A stretch of 64,000 nucleotides of DNA from Thermosynechococcaceae cyanobacterium MS004 (GTDB lineage Bacteria > Cyanobacteriota > Cyanobacteriia > Thermosynechococcales > Thermosynechococcaceae): assembly GCA_022402525.1 (NCBI GenBank), contig JAKRSB010000122.1, positions 1-64,000 of the forward strand, read 5' to 3'. The position numbers and the translations under genes were made by a program. The notes under the pieces are model-generated. The model was not told the origin of the DNA, did no database searches, and saw only the letters and a program-made list of their open reading frames with translations. Positions 192 through 63,143 of this stretch are shown here, one piece after another; position 1 is the first letter of the stretch, and each line of letters starts with the position of its first letter.

Positions 192-221
192 TGATATGCC
201 CCAACTTGATATGCCCTAACT
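192..221. repeat. 15-bp tandem duplication in spacer
   Basis: Two copies of tgatatgccc(c/t)aact stand head to tail, differing at one base. They lie between the truncated repeat element and the 3' end of the next gene. This is one of many locus-specific duplications of this size in the window. Confidence 0.8.
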
Positions 222-272
222 TAACGGCTACCTGTACTGGGCCAATCGTCAGCCGTTTTTTCTAAAGCGCCA

Positions 273-785
273 TTATTCAGCTTCAGGCGCAGCCGGAGTT
301 TCCGGGCTAGTGCTGACGCTGGGGGGTGGACTGGGCACCGATGAACTGGCTGAGGCCGGACTGACTGAGGTCGAGCTGGCTGCTGAAACACTAGCTGAAG
401 GAGGGGCAGAGGCGATCGCGGGCTTGGCTGTGCTGCTCTCTGGCTTTGGTAGACCCAACTGCTCTCTGGCTTGATCCAACAGGCTTGTCGTACCCGACTG
501 GCCTAAAGACTTCGTAAACTTAGCCACCTCGGCCCAGGCGTATTCAAGCTTTGGTTCCTGAAGGGAATCCACCCAAGCCTTAACCTTTTGTCCTGACTGT
601 ACAGAAGACTCGCGAAACCAGTCAAAAAACACCAGCCCCAGGCATAAAAAGAGCCACAGAAGCTTTGTGGTTTCCCGCAGGATGCTCCAGGTAACCTGCA
701 CAGCATTTTGATAAGCCCTGAGCGTTTCTTCGCTTGAAACCGCTTGCCACCAAAGGTTAATTTGGCTCTGCAATGGATTACTCAT
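273..785 (-). CDS. Hypothetical single-pass membrane protein with Ala/Ser/Pro-rich tail
   Basis: The product has 170 residues and no family I recognise. Residues about 40-58 form one hydrophobic segment (LLWLFLCLGLVFF). Residues about 118-170 are low-complexity, rich in Ala, Ser and Pro and ending acidic. The start is ATG with a purine-rich stretch (AGAGAAAG) just upstream. It follows the A-type Fe-S carrier gene on the same strand after about 110 bp, so co-transcription is possible. A short three-fold repeat of about 12 bp (803-837, ctt-cgcaat pattern) lies in that gap. The tail could be a flexible stalk, but nothing in the sequence gives a function. Confidence 0.6.
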   Translation of the reverse strand: MSNPLQSQINLWWQAVSSEETLRAYQNAVQVTWSILRETTKLLWLFLCLGLVFFDWFRESSVQSGQKVKAWVDSLQEPKLEYAWAEVAKFTKSLGQSGTTSLLDQAREQLGLPKPESSTAKPAIASAPPSASVSAASSTSVSPASASSSVPSPPPSVSTSPETPAAPEAE

Positions 786-898
786 AAATCTTTCTCTTAG
801 ACCTTTGCAATGATCTTCGCAATAACTTTCGCAATCTTAAGACTACCAGGGTGTTCGCGGATTCTGGTTGAGGAGCATTCCTAGAGAACAGGCTCGGC

Positions 899-1264
899 CT
901 AGGTAAAGACCTCACTTGCGGGAGACTCAACTGAAAAAGAATGCCCACAGCTACAAATTTGGCTGGCCTTGGGATTATCAAACCGAAAGCTGCCGCCCAT
1001 CAAGTCTTCTGAGTAGTCAATCAACAGCCCTTCTAAAGACGGAAGGCTCTGCTGATTGACCAAAATCTGGAGCGTTCCACCCTCGTCAGCACATTCAAAA
1101 ACCTGATCTGCGGCCTGAGCAGACTCCGCAAAGTCTAGATGGTAAGACAAACCCGCACAGCCCTTAGGCTGAATGCTGATTCTCAACGCACCGTCACGAT
1201 TCGCTAGGTGTTTACGCTTGAGCCGCCGCACTTCAGCGATCGCAGTAGGACTGAGTGAAATCAT
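899..1264 (-). CDS. A-type iron-sulfur cluster carrier (IscA/SufA/HesB family)
   Basis: The 121-residue product fits the A-type carrier family, which binds Fe-S clusters or iron and hands clusters to apoproteins. It shows the core pattern KGCAGLSYHLDF, followed about 65 residues later by the C-terminal CSCGHSF. The three conserved cysteines are therefore present, with Ser between the last pair where CGCG is most usual. I start at the ATG at 1264 because the protein then begins MISLSPTAIAEV, as in relatives; an upstream in-frame TTG at 1306 would add 14 unconserved residues. No suf genes are adjacent. Family assignment is firm; the specific client is unknown. Confidence 0.88.
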   Translation of the reverse strand: MISLSPTAIAEVRRLKRKHLANRDGALRISIQPKGCAGLSYHLDFAESAQAADQVFECADEGGTLQILVNQQSLPSLEGLLIDYSEDLMGGSFRFDNPKASQICSCGHSFSVESPASEVFT

Positions 1265-1326
1265 GATTCTTTCTGTGGAGGATGGCCGCAACGTGCCAGC
1301 AGACAAAAACGACCGAACGTCATAAT

Positions 1327-1731: not shown

Positions 1732-1889
1732 AGGGCTTTAGCCTCATATCGCAACAATATAAATTTTGCTCTATCCTAACCGACGAATCTTATTCTGCGA
1801 TGCAATCTTAATGCTGAGGGGGAGATTTAAAAGTCTCCTCAAAAATCTCCTCGTGTATTATATTGCCCAGACCTGATGGCAAAAAATGC

Positions 1890-3722: not shown

Positions 3723-3835
3723 TCAAATAGATTGGTTCAAAAAGGCAGCGCTTCGCGATCGCGGGAACGGAGGGTGCTAGACCCGTACTGTGGCAGTCCT
3801 GTGGGTAGAGCCCCATGTCCCTAGATAGGCACTAG

Positions 3836-4201: not shown

Positions 4202-4613
4202 AGCTGTCCCATCTCAAAAAGCAACAATCAGCAGGGCATGAATTTAGTCAGATGCAATTGATTCGGATGCAATGGGTTCAGATTCAAGACTCGTCTGCAA
4301 TCTTTGCCCTATCCATCCTTGATTCTACAGTCTACTTTTGAGAATCGTTTGTTCCACCGTTGCGCACAATTGAGAGTGTATTTTACATTGAGGTTGCGTC
4401 GTTTCACTGGCATGACTGAGAACTCTCTCCGTAAAATTATTTCAGGTACTATCGGATTCAATGGGGCCGAGCGCTAAATCTCAACCTTGGGTAAGGGGCA
4501 CCTTTAGTCTAAATTTTGGCGAACGCTTGTCAGTCCGACCCCTCGTCTGGGGAGTTCTAGGTAAAGAGAAGATCAAACCGGTTTGCAGGAAATGAGGGGG
4601 CAAGGTAAAACGG
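4202..4613. other. Divergent spacer with 15-bp triple repeat
   Basis: This 412-bp spacer separates two divergent genes, so both promoters should lie here. I see no RNA gene and no reading frame worth calling. At 4248-4292 there is a degenerate 15-bp tandem repeat, three units of the type tcagatgcaattgat, which lies within about 90 bp of the leftward gene's start. Confidence 0.6.
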
Positions 4614-5261: not shown

Positions 5262-5315
5262 CCCGCTTGCGATCGATAGGACTTGCAGAATAGCCCACCA
5301 ACCTCTGCCAGAACA

Positions 5316-5349: not shown

Positions 5350-5359
5350 CGCTTGAACC

Positions 5360-5854: not shown

Positions 5855-6435
5855 AAGGTTTCCCCATATTTGGATGGGCGTTGGGAGAGTGTGATGTTCC
5901 CTAGTATGGCCGAAAAAATACTCAAATGGCATCCTTCTGTCATCGCCAAAATACACCCTGATTTTCCCTAAACGTCCGTTGTCCTTAGACGAGGATTTCT
6001 GAAAATGTTTCCCTGCAGGGACTCCCTCGTCAGTTAAGAGTTCAGCAAAAAAGTGTGTTGATACAAGTATCAGCATAAAAGGCCCGCTGCCCCATTTCCG
6101 CTGTCCCATTTCCGCTGCTCCATCTCTGAACCCCCATCTCTGAACTCCCATATTTTGCAGCGCTTCTCCATTTTCGAGATTTCTTGATTTTGAGCAATAT
6201 CATGAAATCTTGACATTGCGATCCCCAAAAAGCCTGAAAACTCATAGAAGCTCTTTGGGAAAAGGATTTAGGATATTGACTTCGACAAAAATATATTTCA
6301 TATTCGTTACATATTGATCCCAATATCGATCCCCACTTTAGATTAGATGTCCTTAAAAACTTGCAAGCCGATTGATACAAACCGATTTAATTGAGTGATT
6401 TTTCTACTGTTCCTGCTCAGGAGGTCTTTTGACCC
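5855..6435. other. 580-bp divergent spacer with 14-bp tandem repeat
   Basis: This spacer holds the promoters of the LTxxQ gene (leftward) and the DUF4912 gene (rightward). At 6088-6150 there are four and a half units of a 14-bp repeat: two of the type tgccccatttccgc followed by two of the type tgctccatctctga, so the array has two sub-families. The rest is AT-rich with no convincing gene. Confidence 0.65.
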
Positions 6436-8160: not shown

Positions 8161-8222
8161 AGTTTTAGCCAGTTAAGTTTTAGCCAGTCAAGTTTTAGCC
8201 AAGCTAAGTTTTAACCGAGCTG
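8161..8222. repeat. Four units of a 15-16 bp tandem repeat
   Basis: Units are agttttagccagtta, agttttagccagtca, agttttagccaagcta and agttttaaccgagctg. They lie in the leader 59 bp before the start of the COP23 gene. The rest of the 480-bp spacer after the terminator holds only the possible NIL remnant and AT-rich sequence. Confidence 0.85.
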
Positions 8223-8280: not shown

Positions 8281-8889
8281 ATGAAAGCCTCACTGTTCAA
8301 GACCCTTGCGATCGCCACCACGTTCGGAACCCTTGCGATCTCCCCCCTCCTTCAGCCGCAACCAGCCGCTGCTCAATTCACCGGCCAGCCCATTGGCCAG
8401 TCTATTGGCCAGTCCACCGGCCAGTCCACCGCCAAGTTTTTCTGTCGGGAATATCGCAACCCCAAGACTGGGGAACTGGTTCCTGCCACCTTTGCCAGCA
8501 CCAAGCGTGGCAGTGTTCCCATGATTCTTTGGAAATCCACCTTTTTTAGCAATGGAGCCAACAGCTTCTCACCCATCAACCGATGCATCGAAGTCTCGCG
8601 TCGCTTCCAAACCTTTTATAGTGAAGGCGTACTCACCTATCTCACCACTGGCCAAATGAACAACCAAAACGTCATTTGCGTGGCCGATGAGTACGGTGGC
8701 CCCTGCCGAGGACTGCTGCTCACCCTTGAGCCCAAAGACAATCCTACGCAGTTCTTACGGGATTTGACCAACCTGCGGACACGCGCCAGTGGCCCCATTA
8801 CTAGAGGCTCTGAGTCTCTCTACATCGACGTGGACGAGATGCTAGAAGCTGAGCCTACTGAAGCACCTCCCCTCACCGTCACGCCCTAG
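8281..8889 (+). CDS. COP23 domain secreted protein
   Basis: The 202-residue product has a signal peptide (MKASLFKTLAIAT to QPAAAQF, cleavage near residue 32) and a COP23-like domain. That domain has four cysteines (FFCREY, NRCIEVSRRF, NVICVADEYGGPC) and the pattern ASTKRGSVPMILWKS, SRRFQTFYSEGVLTYLTTGQ, LLLTLEPKDNP. The family is cyanobacterial and named after a circadian-oscillating polypeptide; its biochemical role is not known. Between signal and domain lies a 4-residue repeat (GQPI, GQSI, GQST, GQST) encoded by four 12-bp tandem units at 8380-8427. ATG start. Confidence 0.72.
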   Translation: MKASLFKTLAIATTFGTLAISPLLQPQPAAAQFTGQPIGQSIGQSTGQSTAKFFCREYRNPKTGELVPATFASTKRGSVPMILWKSTFFSNGANSFSPINRCIEVSRRFQTFYSEGVLTYLTTGQMNNQNVICVADEYGGPCRGLLLTLEPKDNPTQFLRDLTNLRTRASGPITRGSESLYIDVDEMLEAEPTEAPPLTVTP

Positions 8890-10480: not shown

Positions 10481-10557
10481 GAAACCACAAGTCCTATTAC
10501 ACCTCTACCAGCATAGAGGCGATAGGCTGTCTTGACATAAGCATCTGGTCGCAAGCT

Positions 10558-10587
10558 TGTTATGGCATGGCTTGTTATGGCATGGCT
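10558..10587. repeat. Perfect 15-bp tandem duplication
   Basis: Two identical copies of tgttatggcatggct, followed by a decayed third start (tgctttg). They lie in the divergent promoter region between purH and the carboxylesterase gene. Confidence 0.85.
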
Positions 10588-10645
10588 TGCTTTGAGAACC
10601 GCGCATTGACCTACAGTAAGAAAGTCATACTCAACTCAACAGCCT

Positions 10646-11299: not shown

Positions 11300-11547
11300 A
11301 AAGAAAATCCAATGGCAGTGAGCAATTCACCAAATAGGGTTTTGCGGTGATGGGGAGGGTCAGCTTAGCCCCGATGACTGAAGAGAATGATCTGTGAAAA
11401 TGAACTAACAAACACCCAGAACGTTACACCAGAAAGTCATCCCCAAAAGTCATCCCAGAAAATTGCCAGAGCCTTCATCCTGCGCGCTAGTCTTTACCGA
11501 CTACCCTTTATCCTAGAAAAAAGCTTACTTTCGCTGGTGACTTAATC

Positions 11548-13793: not shown

Positions 13794-13885
13794 ATTCACT
13801 TGGCTAAATTTACTCGGCCCATTCCCTTGGCTGATTCCCTCGGCTCACTCTCTCGGTTTATTCACTTGATTTATTCACCATTCCA
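13794..13885. repeat. Seven degenerate 13-bp tandem units before hemJ
   Basis: The units follow attc(a/c)ct(c/t)ggct-: attcacttggcta, attcccttggctg, attccctcggctc, actctctcggttt, attcacttgattt and others. One unit is 14 bp long. The array ends 12 bp before the hemJ start codon, so it forms most of the 5' leader. Confidence 0.85.
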
Positions 13886-15943: not shown

Positions 15944-16295
15944 TATATTCTGTTTCTTGATCCTGCAACCTGATTTTGTCGGGTTCATTTCACCCTTTGG
16001 ACGGACTCATTTTTCCCTTTTCATTGACTAGGCTCAAAGCGGAACTTTTCCTAACCTAGCCTCGACACTGTTATGACGATGGGGTAGGAAAATGGTTTTA
16101 GTCTCTTTGTAGAAAAAATCTCGACCCGGCGATCGCCATATCGTCCGTGGCGGAAATGGGCTTCACAACTTTGACAGTTTTCCCGACAGCTCCCTAGACT
16201 TTCCCCTCATTACTTTCCATTCAGCCCTTTTCACCGAACTTTGACGATCTTTAGTGCGTTAATCTAGCGAATTAATCTAGCGAGTTGAGTAACCT
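15944..16295. other. Spacer, 352 bp
   Basis: I see no gene. One HIP1-type site and a 13-bp duplication (ttaatctagcga + a/g, 16259-16284) are present. The duplication ends about 11 bp before the start of the next gene and may form part of its leader. Confidence 0.6.
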
Positions 16296-17162
16296 ATGCG
16301 TAAGGCTTTCATTGCATTGCTGACCATTACGGTAGCCTCTGGCGGTGGTCAACTTCCGCTAGTGGCTCAGCCCCTTAATTCAGGCCCTATTAATTCGGCC
16401 CCTAACAATTCAGTCCCTAATCGCCCTGCACCCAGCAGCGACGTGTATTTCCTGAATCGGGCTAAAAATTTGGCGCGTCAGGCTGCCATCAACGCCAACG
16501 GTGGTCTGGAGCGCTATCGTCCAGATGCAACGATGTACGGCCCCGCCGTGCAGACGGCCTATGTCCGCAACAGCGACGGCAGCATTACGTTCCAATTTAC
16601 GGGTACCACGCCTGGTGCATCCATCCCCAGCTTTGAAACCGTGGCCAGGGTTAACCCCAATGGCGTGGTCAGCTTGGAATATAACGGCGCACCCCGCAGC
16701 GCTATTGGTGGGGCTTCCCTGCCTGCACCCAGTATTCTTCCCCCTGTTCCCATTGCAGTTCCAGAGCCTAGCGCCCCGCCTACCGTACTTCCCCTAGTGC
16801 CTTCTGATGGGCCACTGCCAACCGCAGGTGCGATTACCCCGCGCTCAGTTCCTGCTGAGGGAACCATCGGTGCATCTCGTACTGCGATCGCCTGGGTTGA
16901 TCAAGATGCCTTTTTGTCTAGAGCCCAAAACCTAGCGCGACAGGCTGCCATTCGTGCAAATGGAGGACTGGCGACCTACCGTCCAGAACCGACGATGTTT
17001 GGCCCTTCTGCCCAAGCCCCCTTCCGAAGAAATCCAGATGGCAGTCTGACCTTTTCCTTTAAGGGTGGTGCACCGGGGGCATCAATCCTGACCCTAGAAT
17101 CTACCGTGGTGGTGAGCCCCAGCGGTAGTGTTGAAATTCAGTACAACGGCCCTATTCGCTAG
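16296..17162 (+). CDS. Secreted protein with two copies of an unknown ~84-residue domain
   Basis: The 288-residue product has a signal peptide (MRKAFIALLTITVASG to PLVAQPL). Residues 51-134 and 205-288 are two copies of one domain. Each has F.(N/S)RA.NLARQAAI.ANGGL..YRP..TM.GP, a DGS.TF.F.G..PGAS strand pair, and ends in (L/I).YNG..R. A Pro-rich linker of about 70 residues joins them. I recognise no catalytic residues; the conserved NLARQAAI.ANGGL helix suggests a small helix-plus-sheet fold. The stop codon overlaps the stop of the convergent queC (CTAG shared at 17159-17162). Confidence 0.75.
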   Translation: MRKAFIALLTITVASGGGQLPLVAQPLNSGPINSAPNNSVPNRPAPSSDVYFLNRAKNLARQAAINANGGLERYRPDATMYGPAVQTAYVRNSDGSITFQFTGTTPGASIPSFETVARVNPNGVVSLEYNGAPRSAIGGASLPAPSILPPVPIAVPEPSAPPTVLPLVPSDGPLPTAGAITPRSVPAEGTIGASRTAIAWVDQDAFLSRAQNLARQAAIRANGGLATYRPEPTMFGPSAQAPFRRNPDGSLTFSFKGGAPGASILTLESTVVVSPSGSVEIQYNGPIR

Positions 17163-26377: not shown

Positions 26378-26422
26378 ATGTATTTTGATCGCATATATTT
26401 TGATCGCATGTATTTTGATCAC
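26378..26422. repeat. Three 15-bp tandem units upstream of truncated kdpD
   Basis: Units atgtattttgatcgc, atatattttgatcgc and atgtattttgatcac stand head to tail. They begin 10 bp before the kdpD start and fill most of its leader. Confidence 0.9.
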
Positions 26423-27520: not shown

Positions 27521-27573
27521 AGAAGGTCAACCCAAAAGGCCAACCCAAGAAGTTAACCCAAGAGGCTGGCCCA
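27521..27573. repeat. Four 13-14 bp tandem units in the trpC-panC spacer
   Basis: Units are agaaggtcaaccca, aaaggccaaccca, agaagttaaccca and agaggctggccca. They lie about 150 bp before the panC/cmk start. The remainder of this 310-bp spacer holds the dyad at 27483 and no gene. Confidence 0.85.
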
Positions 27574-30868: not shown

Positions 30869-30970
30869 GCTCGTTCTAATCGTTCGTTCTAATGTTGTTC
30901 TCATTAGAACAAGCTAGGGATAGCTAAGAACAGTTCAGATAAGAGCATTTCAGTCAGAGCATTAGGAGTC
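30869..30970. repeat. Two short tandem duplications before the NDH-2 gene
   Basis: At 30869-30906 there are about three units of cg(t)tcgttctaat (13 bp, the third diverged). At 30942-30970 two units share agagcatt and end in agtc (14-15 bp); they end 8 bp before the start codon. Confidence 0.65.
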
Positions 30971-32373: not shown

Positions 32374-32416
32374 TCAATCCTAGAGGTCAATCCTAGAGGT
32401 TGTTGATCCTAGAAGT
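32374..32416. repeat. 13-bp tandem duplication between convergent genes
   Basis: Two perfect units of tcaatcctagagg (32374-32399) and a decayed third, ttgatcctagaag (32404-32416). The third unit overlaps the 3' end of the leftward ferredoxin gene. Confidence 0.8.
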
Positions 32417-32813: not shown

Positions 32814-32977
32814 AGGGTTGTTAGCTCACAGTGTTTGGATGCACAGTTTTTTGATTCACAGGGTTGTTAAGATTCACAGGGTTGTAAGGACAGGGTTATA
32901 AATCTCGACAAAATTGCCCCTCTCTTCATCTTAGCAAGCTCGCCAGCATGACTCAGCGGAGCATAAAAACGCGCGCA

Positions 32978-33034
32978 TTGAACCTGGAAATTGAGCCTAG
33001 CCTAGAGGTTGAGCCTAGAAGTTGAACCCAGAAA
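32978..33034. repeat. Tandem units of 13 bp (one of 18 bp) after the rqcH gene
   Basis: Units open with ttga(a/g)cc: ttgaacctggaaa, an 18-bp expanded unit, ttgagcctagaag and ttgaacccagaaa. The array abuts the rqcH stop codon at 33037. Confidence 0.75.
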
Positions 33035-35292: not shown

Positions 35293-35449
35293 AACGTGAG
35301 TTCGATGATGCACTGGAAGCCCCTCCTCCCAAACCCCTCTCCCAAAGGCGAGGAGCTTAAGAAACTTGGCTTTTAATTGCCCCTCCTTCTCCCTAGGGAG
35401 AAGGAGGATGGGAGGATGAGGGGCCGTTGTGTTTTGTCGAACTCACGTT
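35293..35449. mobile_element. Complete 157-bp MITE-like element
   Basis: The ends are perfect 13-bp inverted repeats, AACGTGAGTTCGA (35293-35305) and TCGAACTCACGTT (35437-35449). GAAT flanks both ends (35289-35292 and 35450-35453), a plausible 4-bp target duplication. Inside lies a 26-bp perfect palindrome (35382-35407) within a purine/pyrimidine-skewed region. There is no coding capacity. A second, truncated copy is at 54-170. The left end is 7 bp after the remA stop codon. Confidence 0.85.
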
Positions 35450-35715
35450 GAATCCCTTATCGCTTCAGAATAGATGTGGTAGGTGTGTTTTTTTGTAATT
35501 TGTAGGCTGATGGGTGACAAACCCCATGAGCGTGCCGAACACACACCATAAGACTGGTGGATAGCAGGTGGTTGTAGGCTCCTTTTGGAGCACTGTTCAA
35601 CCGAGCAGAACTGGCTGAGGGTTCAGCTCTTGTAAAAGACTATGGTGAAGTGCATTAGCGCTCATTCAATTCGTGCTCATATATTACGTGCTCATGTATG
35701 AATGGAGGACACTTT
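35450..35715. other. Spacer before the Uma2 gene, with hairpin and 15-bp duplication
   Basis: An imperfect hairpin (GAGC-A-GAAC, 35603-35611, with GTTC-A-GCTC, 35621-35629) and a 15-bp duplication (ttcgtgctcatatat / tacgtgctcatgtat, 35670-35699) are visible. The duplication ends 4 bp before the GGAGG of the Uma2 gene. No gene is seen. Confidence 0.55.
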
Positions 35716-36531
35716 ATGACCGCGATCCAAGTCCGTCAGAGCAGTCCATTGCCCCCCATTACCTGGGAAAAACTACCGCCGGATTTTGAGTTGCCAGATG
35801 AACCTGTGGAAAATAACCTTCAACCCTTATTGGCCGCAGCTTTACGAGAAGCGCTGGAATTGGCGGGCTTGATTCTTGAATCTGCGTTGATTGCCTCAAA
35901 TTTTGGAATTTGTGCCACGGTGGGGGCTAAGACGCTTGTCAAAGCTCCAGATTGGGTCTATGTGAAATCTGTGCAGCCCCTTTCAGAGGGGGAGGTAAGG
36001 CGGAGCTATACGCCCCATGTGGAGGGAGAGGTGCCTGCTGTTGTGATGGAGTTTATCTCGGAATCTGAGGGGGGGAAATATTCTATTAACCCTCACTATC
36101 CCTACGGGAAGTGGCATTTTTATGAATGCATTCTTAAGATTCCGGTGTATGTCATTTTTCACCCCAGGACGGGGGAACTTGATGTGTATCGCTTGACGGA
36201 GGGTCAGTATAAGCAGCAGGTGCCGGATGAGAATAATTTTTACTGGCTTGAGGAAATTGGCTTATTTTTGGGGCTATGGCGCGGCAAGAAAGCGGAAATG
36301 ACCGCGACTTGGTTGCGCTGGTGGGATCAGTCGGGGAATCTCTTGTTATGGGGGAGTGAGCAGATTGATCAGGAACGACAACAAGTTGAGCAGGAACGGC
36401 AACGGGCTGAGCAGGAACGGCAACGGGCTAAAACAGCTGAGGTTGCGCTTGAGCAGGAAAGGCGCTTAAATGAACGTCTTGCACAGAAGTTAATGGAGCT
36501 TGGGGTTAGTTCTGAGGCGTTGGACGGATAA
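35716..36531 (+). CDS. Uma2 family putative endonuclease with C-terminal coiled coil
   Basis: The 271-residue product is a Uma2 (DUF820) protein with a PD-(D/E)xK-like core: KAPDWVYV and AVVMEFISESEGGKYSINP, then YPYGKWHFYECILKIPVYVIFHP and GELDVYRLTEGQY. The C-terminus (about 213-262) is a heptad-like QERQ..EQERQRAEQERQRA coiled coil, partly generated by a perfect 21-bp duplication at 36388-36429. Uma2 genes are strongly multiplied in cyanobacteria; their function is unsettled. The start is ATG 35716, with GGAGG 7 nt upstream. No HIP1 site is present in the gene. Confidence 0.85.
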   Translation: MTAIQVRQSSPLPPITWEKLPPDFELPDEPVENNLQPLLAAALREALELAGLILESALIASNFGICATVGAKTLVKAPDWVYVKSVQPLSEGEVRRSYTPHVEGEVPAVVMEFISESEGGKYSINPHYPYGKWHFYECILKIPVYVIFHPRTGELDVYRLTEGQYKQQVPDENNFYWLEEIGLFLGLWRGKKAEMTATWLRWWDQSGNLLLWGSEQIDQERQQVEQERQRAEQERQRAKTAEVALEQERRLNERLAQKLMELGVSSEALDG

Positions 36532-37245: not shown

Positions 37246-37307
37246 CCTACAGAATGGTCAGTACACATCAAAACATCCTGAGCGGGTTGGAACGTGAAGG
37301 CTATCAG

Positions 37308-37346
37308 CGCCTATGATCAACGCCCATGATCAATACCCATGATGTA
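37308..37346. repeat. Three 13-bp units covering the queG start codon
   Basis: Units are cgcctatgatcaa, cgcccatgatcaa and tacccatgatgta. Since 13 is not a multiple of three, each unit's ATG is in a different frame. Only the middle one (37326) opens queG. The first (37313) begins a 10-codon frame, stop included, that overlaps the queG start. Confidence 0.85.
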
Positions 37347-39679: not shown

Positions 39680-42025
39680 GTGAGCTACGAACCCCTTCAC
39701 CATAAGTATCGTCCCCAAACCTTTGCGGATTTGGTGGGGCAGGAGGCGATCACCACCACCCTCAGCAACGCCATGCGCCTGCGCCGTATTGCCCCGGCCT
39801 ATCTGTTTACAGGGCCTAGAGGGACGGGCAAAACCTCCAGCGCTCGTATTTTGTCTAAATCCCTCAATTGCCTGAGTAGCCCTGTCCCCACGCCAGAACC
39901 CTGTGGGGTCTGCGATGCCTGCCAGTCAATTACCAGGGGGGGTGCCCTAGATGTGATTGAAATTGACGCGGCCAGCAATACTGGAGTTGACAATATCCGT
40001 GAGCTGATTGAACGCGCTCAGTTTGCACCTGTGCAGTGCCGCTACAAGATCTACTGCCTAGACGAAGTTCATATGCTGAGTACGGCGGCCTTTAACGCTT
40101 TACTCAAAACCCTAGAGGAACCCCCCGATCGCGTGGTGTTTATTCTGGCCACAACCGATCCCCAGCGGGTGCTGCCCACTATTATTTCGCGCTGCCAGCG
40201 GTTTGATTTTCGACGCATTCCGCTTCCGGCCATGATCCAGCATTTGACCATGATTGCCCAGGCGGAAAACGTTGCGATCGCCCCAACTGCGGTGGAGCTT
40301 GTGGCGCAAATTGCCCAGGGCGGCCTGCGGGATGCAGAAAGTCTGCTGGATCAGCTCAGCCTGCTAACGGGCGAAATTACCGTAGATCGGGTCTGGGATC
40401 TGGTGGGTTCCGTGCCCGAACAGGATCTGATGGCCCTGTCTAAAGCGATCGCCACCGCCAACCCAGAGATCATTCTAGAGCGCACCCGCCACCTCCTCGA
40501 CCGTGGCCGCGAACCCCTGATCGTGCTACAAAACCTCACGGGTTTTTATCGAGATTTACTCATTGCTAAAACCGCACCCAACCGCCGCGACCTCGTGGCC
40601 GTCACCGAACCCACTTGGAACACCCTCATTGAATTTGCAAAAGAGCTAGACCTTAGCGCAATTCTGGCAGGACAGCAGCACCTTCGCACCTGCGAGGTTC
40701 AGGTCAAAAATACAACTCAGCCGCGCCTATGGCTCGAAGTCGCTCTGTTGGGACTCATTTCCCTCCCCTCCACGATTAACACTAGCCCGCAACCCCAGAC
40801 TGCTGTCGTCCCAACTCGATCCGCCCCTACTCTTCCAGTAACCGTTCCCACCTCTCAGTCTTCAAATGCCTATGCAGCAAATGCCTATGCAGCAAACTCC
40901 TCTCCAGCCAACCCTTCTGAAACCCATCCGGCGATCGCAGAGCCTGTCTTTTCTGCGGAATCACCGTCCCCATCAACGGCTCGCCCTAGAGTCGTTCCAG
41001 TCACCCCTTCAGGGTCTCTCGATCAAAACGATGCGCCTTGGCCATCAGACCCCCTAGCGTCTGCACCCATTGAAGAGACAGCCCTCCAAGCACAGCCCAT
41101 TTCCCAAGAGCAGCCAATCCCCGCAGAGATTCCACCTGCTCCAGCGATCGCCAAAGAAGCGATCGCGCCGGCTTTTCCAACTCAGTCCGAAGCAACTACC
41201 TTTCCTACCGCTTCTCCCGTGCAGTCCGCTGAGAGCATCGAGCTAGACCTGGCTCAGCTTTGGAAACAGGTGCTAGGGCAGCTTAACCGCCCGACCCAAG
41301 CATTACTCAGTGAGCATGGGCAGCTACTTTCCTTTCGAGGCCGCGAAGCGCAGATTGGTATTCGGAACGCTTCCCTGGCGCGCCTCGCCCAAAATAAACT
41401 GCCCGATGTAGAAGCAGGCTTTTTCAAGGTTTTTAACCGGAAGGTCGGCGTCAGCCTTCAGATTATGACCGCACAAAGCCATCCGCCTAGCGCCGCTTCC
41501 ACCCCTTCTGCCTCAACCCGCCCTGGATCGACCCATGCACCCACTCAGTCCCCCGTCCATCTGCCAACCCCCTCACCTACCAACGGGTCAGCTAATGGGG
41601 CAGCAAACGGGCTGAACCACGCGGAACCCTCACTCTCGTCGGTGCCGCAAGCGATCGCATCCCCTGTCCTAGCCGATCAAACCCTTCCCCATTCTGATAC
41701 GGGATCTACTTCTGGATCGACATTTGGGACAGTGCCCCAGTCGTCCCAATCATCCCAGTCGCCCCAGCCGTATCCAAGCTCCAATGGAACGGCTGCGGCT
41801 TTACCGACCGCTGTCTTACCAACCGCTCCCCCATCTTGGGAAACCTATGACGAGCTAACCCATTCCGCCAGGAATTTTGCCCAGTTTTTTAACGGCTCTC
41901 TCGTTAATTTAGACGGCAGCGAACCAGAAGGAGGCGAGCCCCTGAGTGAAATCTTGCCTGCTGCTGAGATATTGACCAGTGAATCGATTGATGGGCCAGA
42001 GTGGGAGGATTCCGAAGAAAAATAA
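39680..42025 (+). CDS. dnaX: DNA polymerase III subunits gamma/tau
   Basis: The 781-residue product is the clamp-loader ATPase. Residues 1-370 are the conserved part: YRPQTFADLVGQEAI, P-loop YLFTGPRGTGKTSSAR (45-53), the zinc-binding CGVCDACQ region, DEVHMLSTAAFNALLKTLEEPP, and the sensor 1 segment VVFILATTDPQRVLPTIISRCQRFDF. The remaining half is long and Pro/Ser/Thr/Ala-rich, with a more ordered block at about 515-600 (LAQLWKQVLGQLNRPTQALLSEHG). A 15-bp duplication (40865-40894) produces AYAANAYAAN. Start is GTG 39680. No intein is present. Confidence 0.95.
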   Translation: MSYEPLHHKYRPQTFADLVGQEAITTTLSNAMRLRRIAPAYLFTGPRGTGKTSSARILSKSLNCLSSPVPTPEPCGVCDACQSITRGGALDVIEIDAASNTGVDNIRELIERAQFAPVQCRYKIYCLDEVHMLSTAAFNALLKTLEEPPDRVVFILATTDPQRVLPTIISRCQRFDFRRIPLPAMIQHLTMIAQAENVAIAPTAVELVAQIAQGGLRDAESLLDQLSLLTGEITVDRVWDLVGSVPEQDLMALSKAIATANPEIILERTRHLLDRGREPLIVLQNLTGFYRDLLIAKTAPNRRDLVAVTEPTWNTLIEFAKELDLSAILAGQQHLRTCEVQVKNTTQPRLWLEVALLGLISLPSTINTSPQPQTAVVPTRSAPTLPVTVPTSQSSNAYAANAYAANSSPANPSETHPAIAEPVFSAESPSPSTARPRVVPVTPSGSLDQNDAPWPSDPLASAPIEETALQAQPISQEQPIPAEIPPAPAIAKEAIAPAFPTQSEATTFPTASPVQSAESIELDLAQLWKQVLGQLNRPTQALLSEHGQLLSFRGREAQIGIRNASLARLAQNKLPDVEAGFFKVFNRKVGVSLQIMTAQSHPPSAASTPSASTRPGSTHAPTQSPVHLPTPSPTNGSANGAANGLNHAEPSLSSVPQAIASPVLADQTLPHSDTGSTSGSTFGTVPQSSQSSQSPQPYPSSNGTAAALPTAVLPTAPPSWETYDELTHSARNFAQFFNGSLVNLDGSEPEGGEPLSEILPAAEILTSESIDGPEWEDSEEK

Positions 42026-44236: not shown

Positions 44237-45038
44237 GCATGAACTCCTCTATGCATTCACCATTTACGTTTTAAACTCGCGTCTATCTAAATCTGGTTTG
44301 AGTAGATTCAAGGAGAAGTTCTGAGTAGAATCCTAGCTTGAATCTGCCAGAACCTAGACGGACATCGAATTTCAATGGTTTATTCTAATGCCTATCCCTA
44401 AAATATCAAACTACAAAACTCATAAAATATCGCAGTTTCAGGATGTTCTAAGGGGCATAATATTCCGATCTACTGCTGAAGAAAATTATCTGACTTGACA
44501 AAATAGCTGAAATCATTGCCTAGAAAGCTTTTTGGCCATTATCTCGTCCTGAGGAGAAACGCAAAAATGTAGCATTTGAACATTAGCGCCAAAGCGTTGA
44601 AGAACATGAGCTTTGGCGCTAATGCCTGTTTATATGAAGAATTCTTAATAAACTTCCCCTTAAGGCCATTCTTTTCCTGAATCTTCTCTGGAAGATGGCT
44701 CGGCCAAGCGGGAGAAAGTCGACAAGTTTAATGCTGTCAGCAGCCGATTTCAATTCCTGACCACCCTGACTGCCCTGACTGCTTCTCTGGCTTTACCTCA
44801 AGAGTCAGCCAGCCTTGACTCAACACAGCCTTGACTCAACACAGCCTTAACTCAGCACACATTGAGGCATGCTCACGACACATTGAACACACATTGAGGC
44901 ATGCTCACTTCGGGATTTTGATGCTAGCTTTAGCGCATAGGTTTAAAAACACGATTAAAGTTACGGCTTTAACATTGACAGACAAACAACATCAACATTG
45001 ACAGACAACATATATCGGGAATCATCTGGTAATCATCT
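44237..45038. other. 800-bp repeat-rich spacer between hup and a YaaW-like gene
   Basis: The longest gene-free stretch in the window. It contains a perfect 15-bp hairpin (44581-44624), a 9-bp duplication (ccctgactg, 44764-44781), three 16-bp units (agccttgactcaacac type, 44811-44858), a 21-bp direct repeat (44856-44876 and 44888-44908, containing GCATGC), and a 15-bp direct repeat (aacattgacagacaa, 44971 and 44994). It lacks HIP1 sites. No protein-coding frame is convincing. Promoters for both flanking genes must be here. Confidence 0.75.
44581..44624. terminator. Perfect 15-bp hairpin inside the spacer
   Basis: CATTAGCGCCAAAGC pairs with GCTTTGGCGCTAATG across a 14-nt loop. On the minus strand it is followed within 20 nt by a run of five T, as for a Rho-independent terminator, yet no gene ends here. 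It could end an unannotated leftward RNA or protect hup transcription from readthrough. Confidence 0.5.
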
Positions 45039-47206: not shown

Positions 47207-47572
47207 TCGCCTACGGGAGTCATCCCAGACCCTTAGAACTTCTTAGAACAGATTTTATAGATCTAGTCTAAAAAGACTAGGCTTAAAATTCTGGCCTGCT
47301 TTGGCGCGAGCTGAGAAGTGGCCTGGGAAATGGCTGGCCTGGGAAATGGCTGGGCTATGACAGCTTGGTTTGAAAGCTCTAGTCGACCCATCTGGGACAG
47401 AATATTGATTGCCTGAACACCAGAATGTAAGGTCAACATCTTCTTTATATAGAAGAGATGTCCTATGAAGAAGAATTCTCTATGAAGAAAATGTTGGGTT
47501 TTTGAAGAGTGTGTCACAATTGAGACTGTTTTCTGCCTAGAAACCCATGTTGATGTTTCAGCAGCATAAGTG
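47207..47572. other. Spacer before ndhF1 with 16-bp duplication and weak hairpin
   Basis: A 7-bp stem CTAGTCT/AGACTAG with an AAAA loop (47263-47280) is a possible weak terminator for the thioredoxin gene. A perfect 16-bp tandem duplication ggcctgggaaatggct lies at 47320-47351. The rest is the AT-rich leader or promoter of ndhF1; no gene is seen. Confidence 0.6.
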
Positions 47573-49630: not shown

Positions 49631-49648
49631 GTCTCAAGGATTAGCCTC

Positions 49649-49700
49649 AACGGTAAGCTTCAAGGCTAAGCTTCAAGGCTAAGCTTCAGGGCTGAGCTGC
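49649..49700. repeat. Four 13-bp tandem units between ndhF1 and ndhD1
   Basis: Units are aacggtaagcttc, aaggctaagcttc (twice) and agggctgagctgc. They start 18 bp after the ndhF1 stop, inside what should be the ndhF1-ndhD1 transcript. Each central unit contains AAGCTT. Confidence 0.9.
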
Positions 49701-49795
49701 AGTGCAAACCTTAAACCCAGCATCAACGCGAATCCGCTGCTGTTCCCGCAACGACTCCCATCCCGTCCTCTGCCAGTGCAAAGGGTTATTCGCCT

Positions 49796-52841: not shown

Positions 52842-53381
52842 TTGCGTATTTCATATTAACGACTATCAGGGGAATTTGGCAAGCCTCCGCAGTCGTTTTG
52901 AGCAATCTCGTTCAAGCCAACTCATGGAGCGATCGCAACTACAGCACTCAGAGAAGAACATCTCTATCGCAAAAGTCTGCCTATCCTCTAAGAAAGGTGC
53001 TGAGCCTATGACTACCCCAAAAGGGGGTTAGCCGCCATAAAGCCATCATTTGGGTTTAATTGGGAGTTTTTTAAGGATTTGAGGAGACTTGGGCTCAAAA
53101 ATGCTCTCTATAGGCGACGATGACACAAAGAATGGAGACATCAAGCTTATAATCTTGAAATACATCTTTATAAGAAAGTTTTTATCTTTGCAAATCCCCA
53201 CAAACCTTCGTCAAACAATGGTGTTAAGCAATAAAGTCATGATGGGTTGAGGCCCCACCTCTCAAAATAAGAAGCCCGTTAAATCCAAAACATGCTAAAC
53301 CCAAAACACGTTAAATCTAAAACACGTTAAATCCAAACGTTAAATCCAAAACTTTCGACCCCTTGAAGATTGAGTTATACA
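52842..53381. other. 540-bp spacer upstream of rpaA
   Basis: It separates tRNA-Asn (leftward) from rpaA (rightward). A short hairpin (CTACCCC-AAAA-GGGG, 53012-53031) and a five-unit tandem repeat at 53278-53354 are visible. The rest is AT-rich with no gene recognised. The rpaA promoter must lie here. Confidence 0.6.
53278..53354. repeat. Five tandem units (16, 16, 16, 13, 16 bp) before rpaA
   Basis: The consensus is gttaaatccaaaacac; the fourth unit has lost three bases. The array ends 27 bp before the rpaA start codon and so fills its leader or core promoter. Confidence 0.9.
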
Positions 53382-54184: not shown

Positions 54185-54234
54185 GGACTTTGTGACTCGT
54201 GGAACTTTACGACTCATGGGACTTTACGACTCAT
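54185..54234. repeat. Three 16-17 bp units overlapping the end of the GIY-YIG gene
   Basis: Units are ggactttgtgactcgt, ggaactttacgactcat and gggactttacgactcat. The last unit contains the stop codon of the leftward gene (TAA at 54224-54226), so the duplication has grown across a gene boundary. Confidence 0.85.
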
Positions 54235-54907
54235 GAGTTTGTTGGGTCTGCTCTCGAATAACGGCGCTCCAGTTATCTTCATTCATGGCGGCTGATAAAT
54301 CTTTCCGCTGTTCTGTCGCAGTCTGAACAGTTTCTGCATGCAGGGTATCATCGGCCATGGCGCGCCGCAGCTTCAGCTTCTTCTCTTCGTAGGCTTCTCG
54401 CTCGGCAGCAGACATGACCTGAACTGCGGCTTCTTTGACCGTTCCAGCCCAGGTGCCGTCTAGGTTGCCGGGGGGTGGGCTAGGCAGTGTGGCGATCCAT
54501 TCATCCCGCAGCTTTTCCATCTCGTCCCGTTTTGGGAACTTAAAGGGCTGCACCGTCACAAAGGCGCAAACCTCCGCTCCCATTTGGGTTAAGTGACCCC
54601 GTAAAGACAGCACGACGTTGCGCGAGTAGCCAATGAATTGGGTCTGGCGATCGCCATTCAGCACCGCATAGACGCCTGCAATCTTTGCATTTTGTCCATT
54701 CTCACACCAGACCTCAGTCGGGACTGGACTGTTCACATCGGCGGCTGACATCGGTGTATTCACCGGACTGGCGACATGCTCATCCGCCGAGCTGTATAAA
54801 AAGTCATGCAGACCCTGGTGTGCTTGGGGGACGTTTTGGTGCTCAATGGGCGCTGGATGTTTGGGATTCACCGGTATTGCTCGCTGGAGGGCTGGTTCTG
54901 GCTCCAT
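54224..54907 (-). CDS. GIY-YIG-like domain protein
   Basis: The 227-residue product contains a GIY-YIG-type core at about 77-110: AGVYAVLNGDRQTQFIGYSR, NVVLSLRGHL, in which GVY and FIGYSRN replace the classic GIY and YIG. The N-terminal 70 residues are polar and probably disordered; the C-terminal third is helical and charged (AAEREAYEEKKLKLRRAM). Similar proteins occur in cyanobacteria with unknown function; nuclease activity is unproven. Its last codons and stop lie in a tandem repeat. ATG at 54907. Confidence 0.72.
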   Translation of the reverse strand: MEPEPALQRAIPVNPKHPAPIEHQNVPQAHQGLHDFLYSSADEHVASPVNTPMSAADVNSPVPTEVWCENGQNAKIAGVYAVLNGDRQTQFIGYSRNVVLSLRGHLTQMGAEVCAFVTVQPFKFPKRDEMEKLRDEWIATLPSPPPGNLDGTWAGTVKEAAVQVMSAAEREAYEEKKLKLRRAMADDTLHAETVQTATEQRKDLSAAMNEDNWSAVIREQTQQTHES

Positions 54908-54956: not shown

Positions 54957-55003
54957 ATGCGAAAGATGCGGATGGTCAAAGATGTGAATGGTCAAAGATG
55001 AGG
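54957..55003. repeat. Three 15-16 bp tandem units in the divergent spacer
   Basis: Units are atgcgaaagatgcgg, atggtcaaagatgtga and atggtcaaagatgagg, between the divergent GIY-YIG and lytic transglycosylase genes. Confidence 0.8.
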
Positions 55004-55107
55004 ATTGTCTCCAGCCTTCAGATCTAAAATTTATGATTGTGATTTAGGATTCCGCCGAATCGTTGCCGAATCGTTACGGATCTTGAAATAAAGGGCAATT
55101 GCCAGGT

Positions 55108-57301: not shown

Positions 57302-57323
57302 GTTGAACCAATGTTGAACCAAT
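57302..57323. repeat. 11-bp tandem duplication after the transglycosylase gene
   Basis: Two perfect copies of gttgaaccaat. Just beyond, 57350-57382 contains two related tctagact-ctgg segments overlapping the end of the leftward gene. Confidence 0.7.
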
Positions 57324-57371
57324 CTCTGATTTGCTGGCGCTAGGCCAGTAGTCTAGACTGCTGGCTCTAGA

Positions 57372-58070
57372 CTACTGGCGAAAGGGCGGACGACTACGCA
57401 TCTCGCTGAGATGGGTCTGGGAAGAGGGGCTAAATCCTTGGGAATTGGCAATTTGGGAGGGGCCTGGAGCCTTTTTGGTCACAAGCTGCCTTGCCCACAC
57501 CACCAGATCCGTACCCTGTACCTGATCTACCCAGCCCAAGAGCTTCATCCTGAGCTGTCCATGCTCACACTCCATTCCCTTGAGGGAATACCAAGTTTCC
57601 TTAGACCCAGATAGACCCTTCCGCCACACCAGCAAATCCATTGGGATGCCGGAGCGTAGACCAATACCGCGCCCCCAGCACGCCCTCCACAGCTCTTTTG
57701 CCGTAGCGCACTGAAGCTCATAGCCCTCTGGCGCTTCGCAGTAGCGGTAAATATAGCAGCCTTCTGCTGGCGCTTTAGACATGGGGTAAAATGACTGTGC
57801 CCGCAGGATGTCGTGCATCAATTTGCCAGACGGCGAACCATGACGTACCACAATCTCCATGGGCGTTGTCTTCAGCTTGGCCGTGGCAATGATGCCCTCT
57901 TTTGTGGAGAGGAGCTGCATACTGTCAAATAAAGGCTCGGTTCTGAGGTGATGATTAGACAGCAAAACGGTCTGTCCATGAAAAAACTCTTCGATAAAAG
58001 TTTGAATCAAAACCTCATCGGACATTGCCTCGGAAGGCCGCGTAGATCTGACTTCAGCGTGACTCACCAT
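57372..58070 (-). CDS. Conserved-looking protein of unknown function
   Basis: The 232-residue product is not recognised. It appears well folded from about residue 20 to 190: EEFFHGQTVLLSNHHLRTEP, LLSTKEGIIATAKLKTTPMEIVVRHGSP, SFYPMSKAPAEGCYIYRYCE, and WYSLKGMECEHGQLRMKLLGWVDQVQ. The C-terminal 40 residues are polar and probably disordered. No signal peptide, membrane segment or catalytic motif stands out. ATG at 58070. It stands alone, convergent with the transglycosylase gene. Confidence 0.65.
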   Translation of the reverse strand: MVSHAEVRSTRPSEAMSDEVLIQTFIEEFFHGQTVLLSNHHLRTEPLFDSMQLLSTKEGIIATAKLKTTPMEIVVRHGSPSGKLMHDILRAQSFYPMSKAPAEGCYIYRYCEAPEGYELQCATAKELWRACWGRGIGLRSGIPMDLLVWRKGLSGSKETWYSLKGMECEHGQLRMKLLGWVDQVQGTDLVVWARQLVTKKAPGPSQIANSQGFSPSSQTHLSEMRSRPPFRQ

Positions 58071-58625
58071 AACAGGCTCCTGCTGTGCACTTTGGCTATG
58101 ACATCCCCCGCTAAGCTATCAAGCTTAACAAACCAGTTTTTGAGTGGCCACTCTATTGGCTTTACTTTGACTATATCCTTTGATTTTTAGCGTCAGTTTT
58201 GACGAACTTTCCTGACGAACTTTTTGCTACATACTCCTTGCTATATACAAGTAGCCCAATATATTTAATAATGCCCTATTTTTTACGTCTCTGCCAACAC
58301 AGGACTTCTGATAAACCTCCCCTAGAATGAAGCCTGGGTGATCGCCTTTTGTTGGGCGGGTTGGTTCGTGTAATGCGTCAACCTTAGCGGGGGAACTGTA
58401 CTGCCGCCAGACCCCTGAATTTCCCAACGGTTTAGGCTGATCGCCTGATCCGATAGGCCCATTCATTTAGCATCTATTCACCCAACATTTATCCACCCAA
58501 CATTTATCCACCCAGCAGCTATTCACTATTTACCTTGAGCCTCTCCATGCTTCAACCAGCAGATTGGGTTGATCTGCGGCTTTAATTGACCGGCTTTCCT
58601 AATCTTGATTTGCCTTCTTTTTCCT
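58071..58625. other. 555-bp spacer upstream of ppk1, with repeat and possible structured segment
   Basis: A four-unit 15-bp repeat (catttatccacccaa type) occupies 58471-58530. Between about 58330 and 58460 the sequence is GC-richer than its surroundings and carries complementary pieces (GTTGGG near 58350, CCCAAC near 58429) and repeated TGATCGCC. It may be a structured leader or small RNA, or just part of the ppk1 promoter. No protein gene is convincing. Confidence 0.5.
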
Positions 58626-61016: not shown

Positions 61017-61044
61017 TGCCGCACCAACCCTCGTGAAGACCTAC

Positions 61045-63003
61045 TTACTCTACCGTGACGGATTTTGCGAGGTTGCGGGGCTGATCGACATCCAGTCCTC
61101 GGAGGGCAGCAATATGGTAGGCCAGGAGCTGGAGGGGAATCACCGTTAGGACGGGGGAGAGCAGCTCATCAATTTCTGGGACGGGCAATAAGGTATCGAA
61201 GGTGTCCTGGGCGTCCTGTTCGTTCATGGGGGTAACGCCGATGAGCTGGGCATCTCTGGCTCTGGCTTCTTGGGCATTGGAGAGCACTTTTTCAAAGACT
61301 GTCCCCGGCATGGCGATCGCCACTACGGGCACTTTGGCATCGAGGAGCGCAATGGGGCCATGCTTCATTTCTCCAGCGGGGTAGCCCTCGGCGTGGATAT
61401 AGCTAATTTCTTTGAGCTTGAGGGCACCTTCGAGGGCGATGGGGAAATTGATGCCGCGACCGAGGTAGATAAAGTCGTGGGTATCGAGGAAATTATGGGC
61501 GAGGGTTTCCACATAGCGCTCTTGGCTTTCTAAAATCTGCTCGACTAGTGCCGGAAGCTGGCGTAGACCTTCCACAATTTCGCCCATGCGCGTTGGGGTT
61601 AGGGTTTGGCGATGGTGAGACAGATCCAGCGCCAGTAGATAAAAGGCAATGAGCTGAGCCACAAAGGTTTTGGTGGCCGCCACCCCAATTTCAATGCCCG
61701 CATGGGTGTCAATGACGTGGGGAATCATGCGCCCCAGGGAGCTTTCGGGGCGATTGGTGATGCCTAAAAATCGGGCGCGATAGGTATCGGTTTTGTCGGC
61801 GCGGCGCTTGCCCTCTAGCTCTAGGGCGGCTAGGGTGTCTGCGGTTTCACCGGATTGGGTGACGCCAATCATCAGGGTGTTGGGGGTGAGGGGCGCAGGC
61901 GCGTAGCGGAACTCAGAGGCATAATGCACTTCTGTGGGGATGCCCGCCACTTGCTCTAGTAGGTACTTACCAACCAAACTGGCATGCCAGCTTGTCCCAC
62001 AGGCCAAGATATGGATTTGCTGAAGGTCTGTGTACAGGTCTGCCGGAAGATTTAATCGAATGGGGCTTTGAGATGGGCTTTGAGGCTGGCCGCTTTGAGG
62101 CTGGCCGCTTTGAAGCTGGTCGGGCTGCCAAGCGTCATCTAAATAGTTTTCGAGGCAGGTGCGGACCACACCGGGCTGCTCATAGATTTCCTTGAGCATG
62201 AAGTGCTTGAAGCCCTGTTTTTCTACCATCACAGGGTTCCAGCTTAGGGTTCTGGGGGTTTTGCGGAGGCGATCGCCATTGAAATGATAGACCTCAACTC
62301 CGGTACAGGTGAGTCGGGCAATTTCGCCATTATCCAGGGGCAGAATGGTTTGGGTATAGGCAATGAGGGCGGGGGTATCGGAAGCGCAGTAAAATTCGCC
62401 CTGCCCATAGCCAATCACCAACGGAGCCTGCTGTCGCGCCACAATGAGCTCGTTGGGGAAGTCTGCTGAAATGACGGCGATCGCAAAAGCGCCCTGGAGC
62501 TGATTGACCGCTGCGCGCACGGCACGAAGGAGTAGAGAGGCGTGATCGGCCTTGACCACTGGTGCCTCCGCAGAGTCCGACTGGAACTGCTGGAGGTGAT
62601 CGGCAATGAGGTGAGGGATGACTTCTGTATCGGTTTCTGAGCGAAAGGTGTAGCCCTTTTGCTTGAGGAGTTCGCGGAGTTCTCGATAGTTTTCAATAAT
62701 GCCGTTCTGCACCACCGCCAGCCGCTCCTGTTCATCACGGTGGGGGTGGGCGTTGTATTCTTCGGGCTTGCCGTGGGTGGCCCAGCGCGTATGGCCAATG
62801 CCTAGCGAGGCTGGATATTCCCAAGTGGTCAACTTATCGGCCAGGTTATGGAGCTTACCTTTGGCGCGGATACAGTGCAGCTCGCCCTCCCAGATTGCCG
62901 CAATCCCCGCAGAGTCATACCCGCGATACTCTAGCTTCTGGAGGCCAGAGAGCAGAATTTGACTGGCTTGCTGGGGGCCAATATAGCCAACAATTCCACA
63001 CAT
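61045..63003 (-). CDS. glmS: Glutamine-fructose-6-phosphate aminotransferase (isomerizing)
   Basis: The 652-residue product makes glucosamine-6-phosphate for peptidoglycan and LPS. It starts MCGIVGYIGPQ with the nucleophile Cys2, then GIGHTRWATHGKPEEYNAHPH and LKQKGYTFRSETDTEVIPHL. Two SIS domains follow (ACGTSWHASLVGKYLLEQVA, GVTQSGETADTLAALE, GRGINFPIALEGALKLKEIS), ending NLAKSVTVE. The linker between halves has an extra QSGQPQSGQPQSPSQSP stretch encoded by three 15-bp tandem units (62078-62122). No glmS ribozyme is expected or seen. ATG at 63003. Confidence 0.97.
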   Translation of the reverse strand: MCGIVGYIGPQQASQILLSGLQKLEYRGYDSAGIAAIWEGELHCIRAKGKLHNLADKLTTWEYPASLGIGHTRWATHGKPEEYNAHPHRDEQERLAVVQNGIIENYRELRELLKQKGYTFRSETDTEVIPHLIADHLQQFQSDSAEAPVVKADHASLLLRAVRAAVNQLQGAFAIAVISADFPNELIVARQQAPLVIGYGQGEFYCASDTPALIAYTQTILPLDNGEIARLTCTGVEVYHFNGDRLRKTPRTLSWNPVMVEKQGFKHFMLKEIYEQPGVVRTCLENYLDDAWQPDQLQSGQPQSGQPQSPSQSPIRLNLPADLYTDLQQIHILACGTSWHASLVGKYLLEQVAGIPTEVHYASEFRYAPAPLTPNTLMIGVTQSGETADTLAALELEGKRRADKTDTYRARFLGITNRPESSLGRMIPHVIDTHAGIEIGVAATKTFVAQLIAFYLLALDLSHHRQTLTPTRMGEIVEGLRQLPALVEQILESQERYVETLAHNFLDTHDFIYLGRGINFPIALEGALKLKEISYIHAEGYPAGEMKHGPIALLDAKVPVVAIAMPGTVFEKVLSNAQEARARDAQLIGVTPMNEQDAQDTFDTLLPVPEIDELLSPVLTVIPLQLLAYHIAALRGLDVDQPRNLAKSVTVE

Positions 63004-63111
63004 ACCGCAATTCCTTTGCTGTCACGATCAGCCTAATGGAGAAGAAGCACATCTATATCTAGGCGCTGTACTACAGTCTAGGGGACTGGGGCGAGCTGTT
63101 TGAGCCAGTAT

Positions 63112-63143
63112 AGTTTCTAGACCCTGAAGTTTCTAGACCCTGC
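63112..63143. repeat. 16-bp tandem duplication upstream of glmS
   Basis: Two copies of agtttctagaccctg(a/c) in the spacer between eda and glmS. Confidence 0.85.

Follow-up and report, generated by a model that had tools for sequence, protein, structure and literature searches.

Why do the spacers between genes in one cyanobacterial genome so often contain short tandem duplications, each of a different sequence? This question was raised by the 64,000-nucleotide stretch analyzed here (the window; C28:1-64000 of the 4.93-Mb, 150-contig assembly of a cyanobacterium, G000), for which an initial annotation had proposed that nearly every spacer carries its own tandem microduplication of 11–18 bp. 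The analysis covered 684 kb of the same assembly, of which 121.6 kb is noncoding, together with eight relatives (112–200 kb each) and about 80 stretches of at most 22 kb from other bacteria. Two of the relatives, G001 and G002, belong to the same genus as the window's genome and contribute 47 kb of noncoding DNA together; the family also includes Petrachloros mirabilis (G010), Lyngbya confervoides BDU141951 (G007) and G006 (2,593,857 bp), which we take to be Thermosynechococcus BP-1. Gene calls come from a simple hexamer-based program of our own, and gene starts are approximate. Arrays were detected with Tandem Repeats Finder (TRF), with our own, stricter lag-match detector and with a near-tandem scan, and doubtful cases were read directly. 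Dinucleotide shuffles of noncoding DNA served as the null control.

The noncoding DNA of the genome sample contained 231 tandem arrays with units of 11–18 bp, whereas its dinucleotide shuffles contained none, so that the shuffled-spacer control on which the initial annotation had staked its claim left the observation standing. Among the same-genus relatives, G001 had no such array in noncoding DNA and G002 had 2. In G010, G007, G004, G011 and G006 the density was 0–36 arrays per 100 kb, and a 50-kb stretch of E. coli had no arrays. Within the window, TRF reported 48 rows and the lag-match detector 28 arrays. By one or another of TRF, the lag-match detector, the near-tandem scan and direct reading, a tandem direct repeat was located no more than about 20 bp from every one of the 26 positions that had been listed originally; the weakest, all imperfect, are those at 11433, 19651, 30869, 32978 and 35670. 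With a loose detector, an 11–18 bp array was found in 48% of the 44 window spacers that are at least 60 bp long and in 54% of 397 spacers in the genome sample, compared with 0–0.5% of spacers after shuffling and 3.6% in G001 and G002. The arrays are therefore genome-wide as proposed, but they occupy about every second spacer rather than nearly every one. These results confirm that the tandem duplications are real and genome-wide.

The unit lengths of 225 noncoding arrays form a unimodal distribution with its mode at 14 bp (11 bp, 18 arrays; 12 bp, 16; 13 bp, 45; 14 bp, 62; 15 bp, 44; 16 bp, 22; 17 bp, 11; 18 bp, 7). The original description of the lengths as mostly 13 or 15–16 bp does not hold at this scale, and a single window has too few arrays to show the mode; the flat distribution named at the same time as evidence to the contrary was not seen. 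A threshold-free autocorrelation of noncoding DNA showed a hump at lags 13–15, with +2.3% at lag 14, which was clear only in the window's genome; G004 at lag 14 and G007 at lags 13–14 had smaller excesses, based on less sequence. Exact duplications of 13, 14 and 15 bp numbered 24, 33 and 20, with a smaller bump of 13 at 11 bp, and for the 13–15 bp classes the shuffles gave none and the pooled relatives about 1 per class. In the near-tandem scan, the lag of repeats that appeared spaced rather than tandem was still mostly 12–17, which makes them probable eroded members of this class. Young arrays (at most 3% mismatch) and older arrays have a common mode of 14, and therefore the process has not changed in character while copies diverged by up to about 20%.

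The sequence of the unit differs at each locus, as the initial annotation had stated. Only 77 of 3086 9-mers are common to more than one array, at most three arrays each, against a rough chance estimate of 36, and since the units do not cluster, a dispersed repeat family or common motif was rejected. The 6-mers AATGGG and AACCCA are weakly enriched, barely survive correction and occur in a minority of arrays. Adjacent copies have a median identity of 93%, and 55 of the 225 arrays are perfect; transitions are favored 2.8:1 among the differences between copies. The A content is 29% in units and 27.5% in noncoding DNA. With respect to placement, array density is 2.6/kb in divergent, 2.2/kb in tandem and 1.9/kb in convergent spacers. 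Divergent spacers most often contain an array (65%), and they are also the longest. In tandem spacers, the arrays thin out approaching the start codon, and 50 array edges are located 10–60 bp from a start codon, compared with 59 ± 6 under uniform placement. These position tests reject a regulatory or 5'-leader reading. Of the original suggestion of a slippage or repair bias, possibly tolerated or selected in 5' leaders, the genome-wide mutational bias is thus retained and the role of leaders is not, while plain slippage gains little from the data described below.

Arrays in genes follow a different pattern from those in spacers. Coding DNA contained 80 arrays with a unit divisible by three and 3 with a unit that is not, whereas the noncoding rate predicts 310 in-frame and 731 frameshifting arrays. 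The pattern in genes looks like uniform mutational input filtered by selection. Between its GATase and SIS domains, GlmS has an additional 14 residues, which are missing from four of the five aligned homologous stretches, including those of G001 and G002, and the 15-bp array at 62077..62119 is part of this insert. In several genes, alignments of coding sequences (CDS) showed the array segment as an insertion missing from homologues; for some other genes the CDS alignment was ambiguous or contained no insertion. In the polA gene of the window's genome (L264), the sequence immediately preceding the 5'-nuclease domain of PolA is AKESRAKESRAK, which gives the impression that the polymerase gene itself has undergone a 15-bp in-frame duplication.

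The junctions of the duplications bear on how they began. In 55 clean two-copy duplications, junction homology of 0, 1, 2, 3, 4 and 5 nt was found in 21, 14, 8, 6, 5 and 1 cases, respectively, and the chance expectation is about 30, 16, 6, 2, 0.7 and 0.2. Because the homology is mostly none and near chance, most of these duplications needed no prior repeat, although a minority may have. No junction motif at the array boundaries was significant after correction for the positions tested; the boundary logos were weak (for instance, few Gs at −3, chi2 13.2, 24 positions), and sequence-specific nicking was rejected.

We conclude that the arrays are very probably a mutational signature and not an element or a regulator. 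A lineage-specific process duplicates 11–18 bp (mode 14) of any local sequence, anywhere in the resident chromosome, and the closest sequenced relatives, with 2 arrays in the 47 kb of G001 and G002, show no comparable signature. For the molecular step, we tentatively propose the ligation of displaced flaps, to which we give somewhat less than an even chance. At a nick, or at a repair or Okazaki gap, a polymerase would push aside some 14 nt of the strand lying downstream; the resulting flap would then be ligated and not cut. Large-loop intermediates escape MutS, and the ligated flap would be a loop too large for MutS recognition, which the next replication would fix as a tandem duplication with no need for homology. 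Ordinary slippage or recombination between the two copies could then produce arrays of 3–7 copies, point mutations would later erode them, and selection would clear genes of duplications that shift the frame and of most that preserve it, so that scars would gather in spacers and protein linkers. We favor flap ligation because it requires no homology, Ku or break, because the loop would evade MutS, and because the displacement length would set the size. The explanation as a whole, a lineage-specific duplication process together with flap ligation, appears to us evenly balanced between right and wrong.

Several observations weigh against this proposal. Junction homology of 3–5 nt is in modest excess (12 seen and 3 expected), and some duplications may start by ordinary slippage. 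The size mode, which the proposal attributes to flaps of a putative ~14 nt, could equally be attributed to two nicks on opposite strands. PolA is a single copy whose conserved acidic 5'-nuclease motifs appear intact, as in unaffected relatives, and no gene difference was found that would let flaps persist. The missing or altered repair genes that had been suspected at the outset (mutS2, sbcCD, polA domains) were likewise not borne out: in addition to PolA, both MutS and MutS2 are present as full-length open frames, and RecJ is present. SbcD was below the cut-off in the window's genome, but equally so in the unaffected, array-free relatives G001, G002, G004, G007 and G010; it is present in G029, a possibly affected genome described below. 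Accordingly, loss of the PolA exonuclease, MutS, MutS2 or RecJ, a mismatch-repair mutator through mutS loss and a second strand-displacing PolA were all rejected as candidates. Ku (PF02735) had no match in G000 or in 11 other genomes, while a B. subtilis control was matched. Ku-dependent joining was therefore ruled out, and classical break joining is not available. This absence, and the presence of MutS, which a large loop would escape, count in favor of the flap proposal.

Staggered breaks would leave a similar product, a short tandem duplication with little junction homology and a size equal to the stagger, if opposite-strand nicks about 14 nt apart were filled in at the overhangs and blunt-joined, thereby duplicating the overhang. 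In mouse embryonic stem cells, small tandem duplications do arise from staggered (Cas9-nickase) breaks by fill-in and joining (PMC8355091). That route is Ku-dependent in mouse cells, however, and given the missing Ku in the window's genome and the 11 others, it would need an assumed Ku-independent end joining as well as a source of ~14-nt staggers, which makes it unlikely here. We consider equally doubtful that plain replication slippage between chance direct repeats about 14 bp apart, raised by a replication or repair defect and followed by more slippage, accounts for the arrays. Copy numbers of 2–7 and the excess of 3–5 nt homology in a minority of clean duplications agree with slippage. Nevertheless, about two thirds of the clean duplications have 0–1 nt of junction homology, near chance, the narrow 14-bp mode is not explained by slippage alone, and the presence of MutS, MutS2 and RecJ speaks against this reading. 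Plain slippage is only weakly indicated because most clean two-copy duplications barely exceed the junction homology expected by chance.

The remaining explanations are far less probable. Footprints of a transposon, that is, target-site duplications of about 14 bp left by precise excision, would also be local tandem copies without homology, but the lengths span 11–18 bp, arrays of 3–7 copies are common, and the only abundant dispersed element found in 684 kb, a family resembling miniature inverted-repeat transposable elements (MITEs), is flanked by direct repeats of 6–8 bp, not 14, at most copies; we regard this origin as very improbable. It is just as hard to credit that the arrays are functional cis elements, namely repeated sites, protein-binding or RNA, under selection in 5' leaders. 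Some arrays are located closely upstream of start codons, and the high occupancy of divergent spacers (65%, in the longest spacer type) would agree with such a role, but start-proximal arrays are not enriched (50 compared with 59 expected), arrays also occur in convergent spacers and in genes, and the units are unique, with shared motif content limited to the weak 6-mer enrichment. The class as a whole contradicts this reading, although a few individual arrays could have been co-opted. An assembly or sequencing artefact, which a draft in 150 contigs might invite, has almost no likelihood, since the copies carry independent point mutations (median identity 93%) with transitions at 2.8:1 and the 80:3 in-frame filter in genes is beyond any assembler.

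The individual arrays of the window are listed in the table. The 21-bp array in the Uma2-like gene may be an ordinary coiled-coil repeat, because its unit is longer than those of the main size class and related repeats occur in homologues.

Tandem arrays located in the window and, in the last row, small contigs of the same assembly
Position	Unit and copies	Context
192..222	15 bp, x2.1	spacer
4241..4287	15 bp, x3.1, diverged	spacer
6084..6151	two unrelated 14-bp arrays side by side: CCGCTGCCCCATTT x2.4–2.9; CCATCTCTGAACCC x2.3	
8161..8213	15 bp, x3.5	spacer
8383..8431	12 bp, in-frame	inside COP23-family CDS 8281-8889 (+)
10555..10589	15 bp, x2.3, perfect	spacer
11433..11458	13-bp lag, two imperfect copies of AAAGTCATCCC	read directly
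13813..13878	13 bp, x4–5, diverged	spacer
16259..16283	13 bp, x1.9	spacer
16375..16420	15 bp, in-frame	CDS 16296-17162; G001 homologue lacks these 7 residues
19651..19673	13-bp lag, two copies, decayed	spacer
26381..26420	15 bp, x2.7	spacer
27523..27566	13 bp, x3.4, diverged	spacer
30871..30901	13-bp lag	spacer
32374..32400	13 bp, x2.1, perfect	spacer
32827..32888	15 bp, x2.3–2.6, then 18-bp lag repeat (GATTCACAGGGTTGT)	spacer
32999..33033	13 bp, x2.7	spacer
35660..35695	15 bp, x2.4	spacer
36365..36429	21 bp, x3, in-frame, EQERQRA repeats	CDS, Uma2-like
37303..37343	13 bp, x3.2	extends into start of CDS 37326
40863..40912	15 bp, in-frame	in DnaX (39680-42025, +)
44810..44859	16 bp, x3.1	spacer
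47319..47353	16 bp, x2.2, perfect	within doubtful short open reading frame
49633..49702	13 bp, x5.4	spacer; gapped relative to G002 sequence
53277..53352	16 bp, x3.6–4.9, passing into 13 bp	spacer
54187..54235	17 bp, x2.9	gene end
54962..55009	16 bp, x3	spacer
55054..55075	11 bp, x2, perfect, without junction homology	
57302..57323	11 bp, x2, perfect, without junction homology	
57352..57379	14 bp, x2	spacer / gene end
58471..58514	15 bp, x2.9	spacer
62077..62119	15 bp, x2.9, in-frame	GATase–SIS linker of GlmS (61045-63003, −)
63112..63142	16 bp, x1.9	spacer
L103-L105, L107, L109-L113, L115-L117, L120	near array-free	small contigs

Spacer-by-spacer alignment with G001 and G002 was possible in few cases, as divergence was too high for reliable alignment. 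Two other components of the genome served as internal controls. The MITE-like family is dispersed and palindromic, about 155 bp long and bounded by the ends AACGTGAGTTCGA...TCGAACTCACGTT; the 684 kb contain about 14 copies. One copy is located at 35294-35449 of the window and a degenerate one near 52-189, and further copies were found in L106, L118, L121, L124, L126, L127, L130, L133, L137, L138 and L141. Some copies of this element have inserts of 7, 11 and 14 bp relative to others, and these inserts resemble local duplications. The 13 contigs shorter than 9 kb had 2 arrays in about 23 kb of noncoding DNA, compared with about 2.3/kb on the large contigs. They are mostly of lower GC and contain accessory genes (restriction-modification, DndB, TonB receptor). 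The HIP1 sites that are also present on these contigs suggest a cyanobacterial origin, although some contigs could be foreign. We read these contigs as recently acquired or plasmid DNA that is too young to have gathered scars.

In the comparison set, a 12.6-kb contig of Synechococcales cyanobacterium RM1_1_8 (G029, L063) has five unrelated 14–15 bp arrays between 2578 and 12098, in about 3 kb of noncoding DNA. This suggests a second affected lineage, in a small sample that was the extreme picked among 76 loci. Another cyanobacterium, G021 (L252-L261), has many noncoding tandem repeats with a broad excess at lags 4–14 and no 14-bp mode, and these probably come from a different process. It is conceivable, though we would sooner doubt than assert it, that some cyanobacterial lineages have an unrecognized enzymatic activity, nicking, strand-displacing or flap-joining, with a footprint of about 14 nt, that continually writes homology-independent tandem duplications of near-fixed size and has evolved repeatedly (here and in RM1_1_8). 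If such an activity exists, it would be a measurable mutational signature that seeds new spacer sequence and protein linkers.

Short tandem duplications are a main source of new DNA, yet there is no settled account of how the first copy arises when slippage has no repeat to act on. The genome described here offers hundreds of independent, datable events confined to a narrow range of sizes, close relatives without such events, and intact copies of the repair genes that would usually be suspected; because of this combination, the origin of duplications can be tested by comparing genomes and by watching mutations. The arrays also indicate that a mutational bias can build low-complexity linkers in essential proteins (GlmS, DnaX and apparently PolA) and can fill spacers with regulatory-looking repeats that need not be regulatory.

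In the open-access literature, our searches returned no bacterial chromosome described as having a duplication signature with a single mode near 14 bp, which is no proof of novelty. Several known systems resemble the arrays in part. The heptameric short tandemly repeated repetitive (STRR) sequences of cyanobacteria recur across loci, in tandem and mostly in intergenic DNA. The arrays share the tandem, mostly intergenic, cyanobacterial setting but have unique units of 11–18 bp: a 7-bp unit was found in just 2 of 246 noncoding arrays, none of the listed 14-mers is a doubled heptamer, and no unit recurs at many loci, in accordance with the initial annotation, which had set them apart from STRR sequences. 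In rad27/FEN1-deficient yeast, duplications come from unprocessed flaps and use flanking repeats of several nucleotides. The proposed flap origin is alike, but most duplications here have no flanking repeats, and the 5' flap nuclease of PolA, judged from its domain sequence, seems to be neither defective nor missing. The duplications at staggered breaks in mammalian cells are also short, local and mostly without junction homology, but they require Ku and CST-Pol alpha-primase (PMC8355091), and Ku is absent in the window's genome. Ehrlichia ruminantium has bacterial tandem repeats in intergenic DNA as well, attributed to active expansion and contraction in the long intergenic regions of a contracted genome, whereas the arrays, compared by description, are new short duplications of near-fixed size (PMC10710844). 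Borg extrachromosomal elements have pervasive tandem repeats (Schoelmerich et al. 2023, PMC9879509) with site-specific units in both spacers and genes, in-gene units divisible by three, a recent origin and virtually no counterparts in host genomes (PMC9879509). Nearly all Borg repeats are perfect, and they are strongly enriched in A; units of 18, 20 and 21 nt are given as examples, and roughly half of the repeats fall in open reading frames (PMC9879509). The window's genome shares the unique units and the in-frame arrays in genes but not the perfect, A-rich repeats. Its arrays depart from the Borg ones in unit size, composition and age structure: their lengths peak sharply at 14 bp, they have no base bias of that order, many are two-copy or eroded, and they are in a bacterial chromosome. 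Among the systems compared, the Borg tandem repeats are the closest description that we found.

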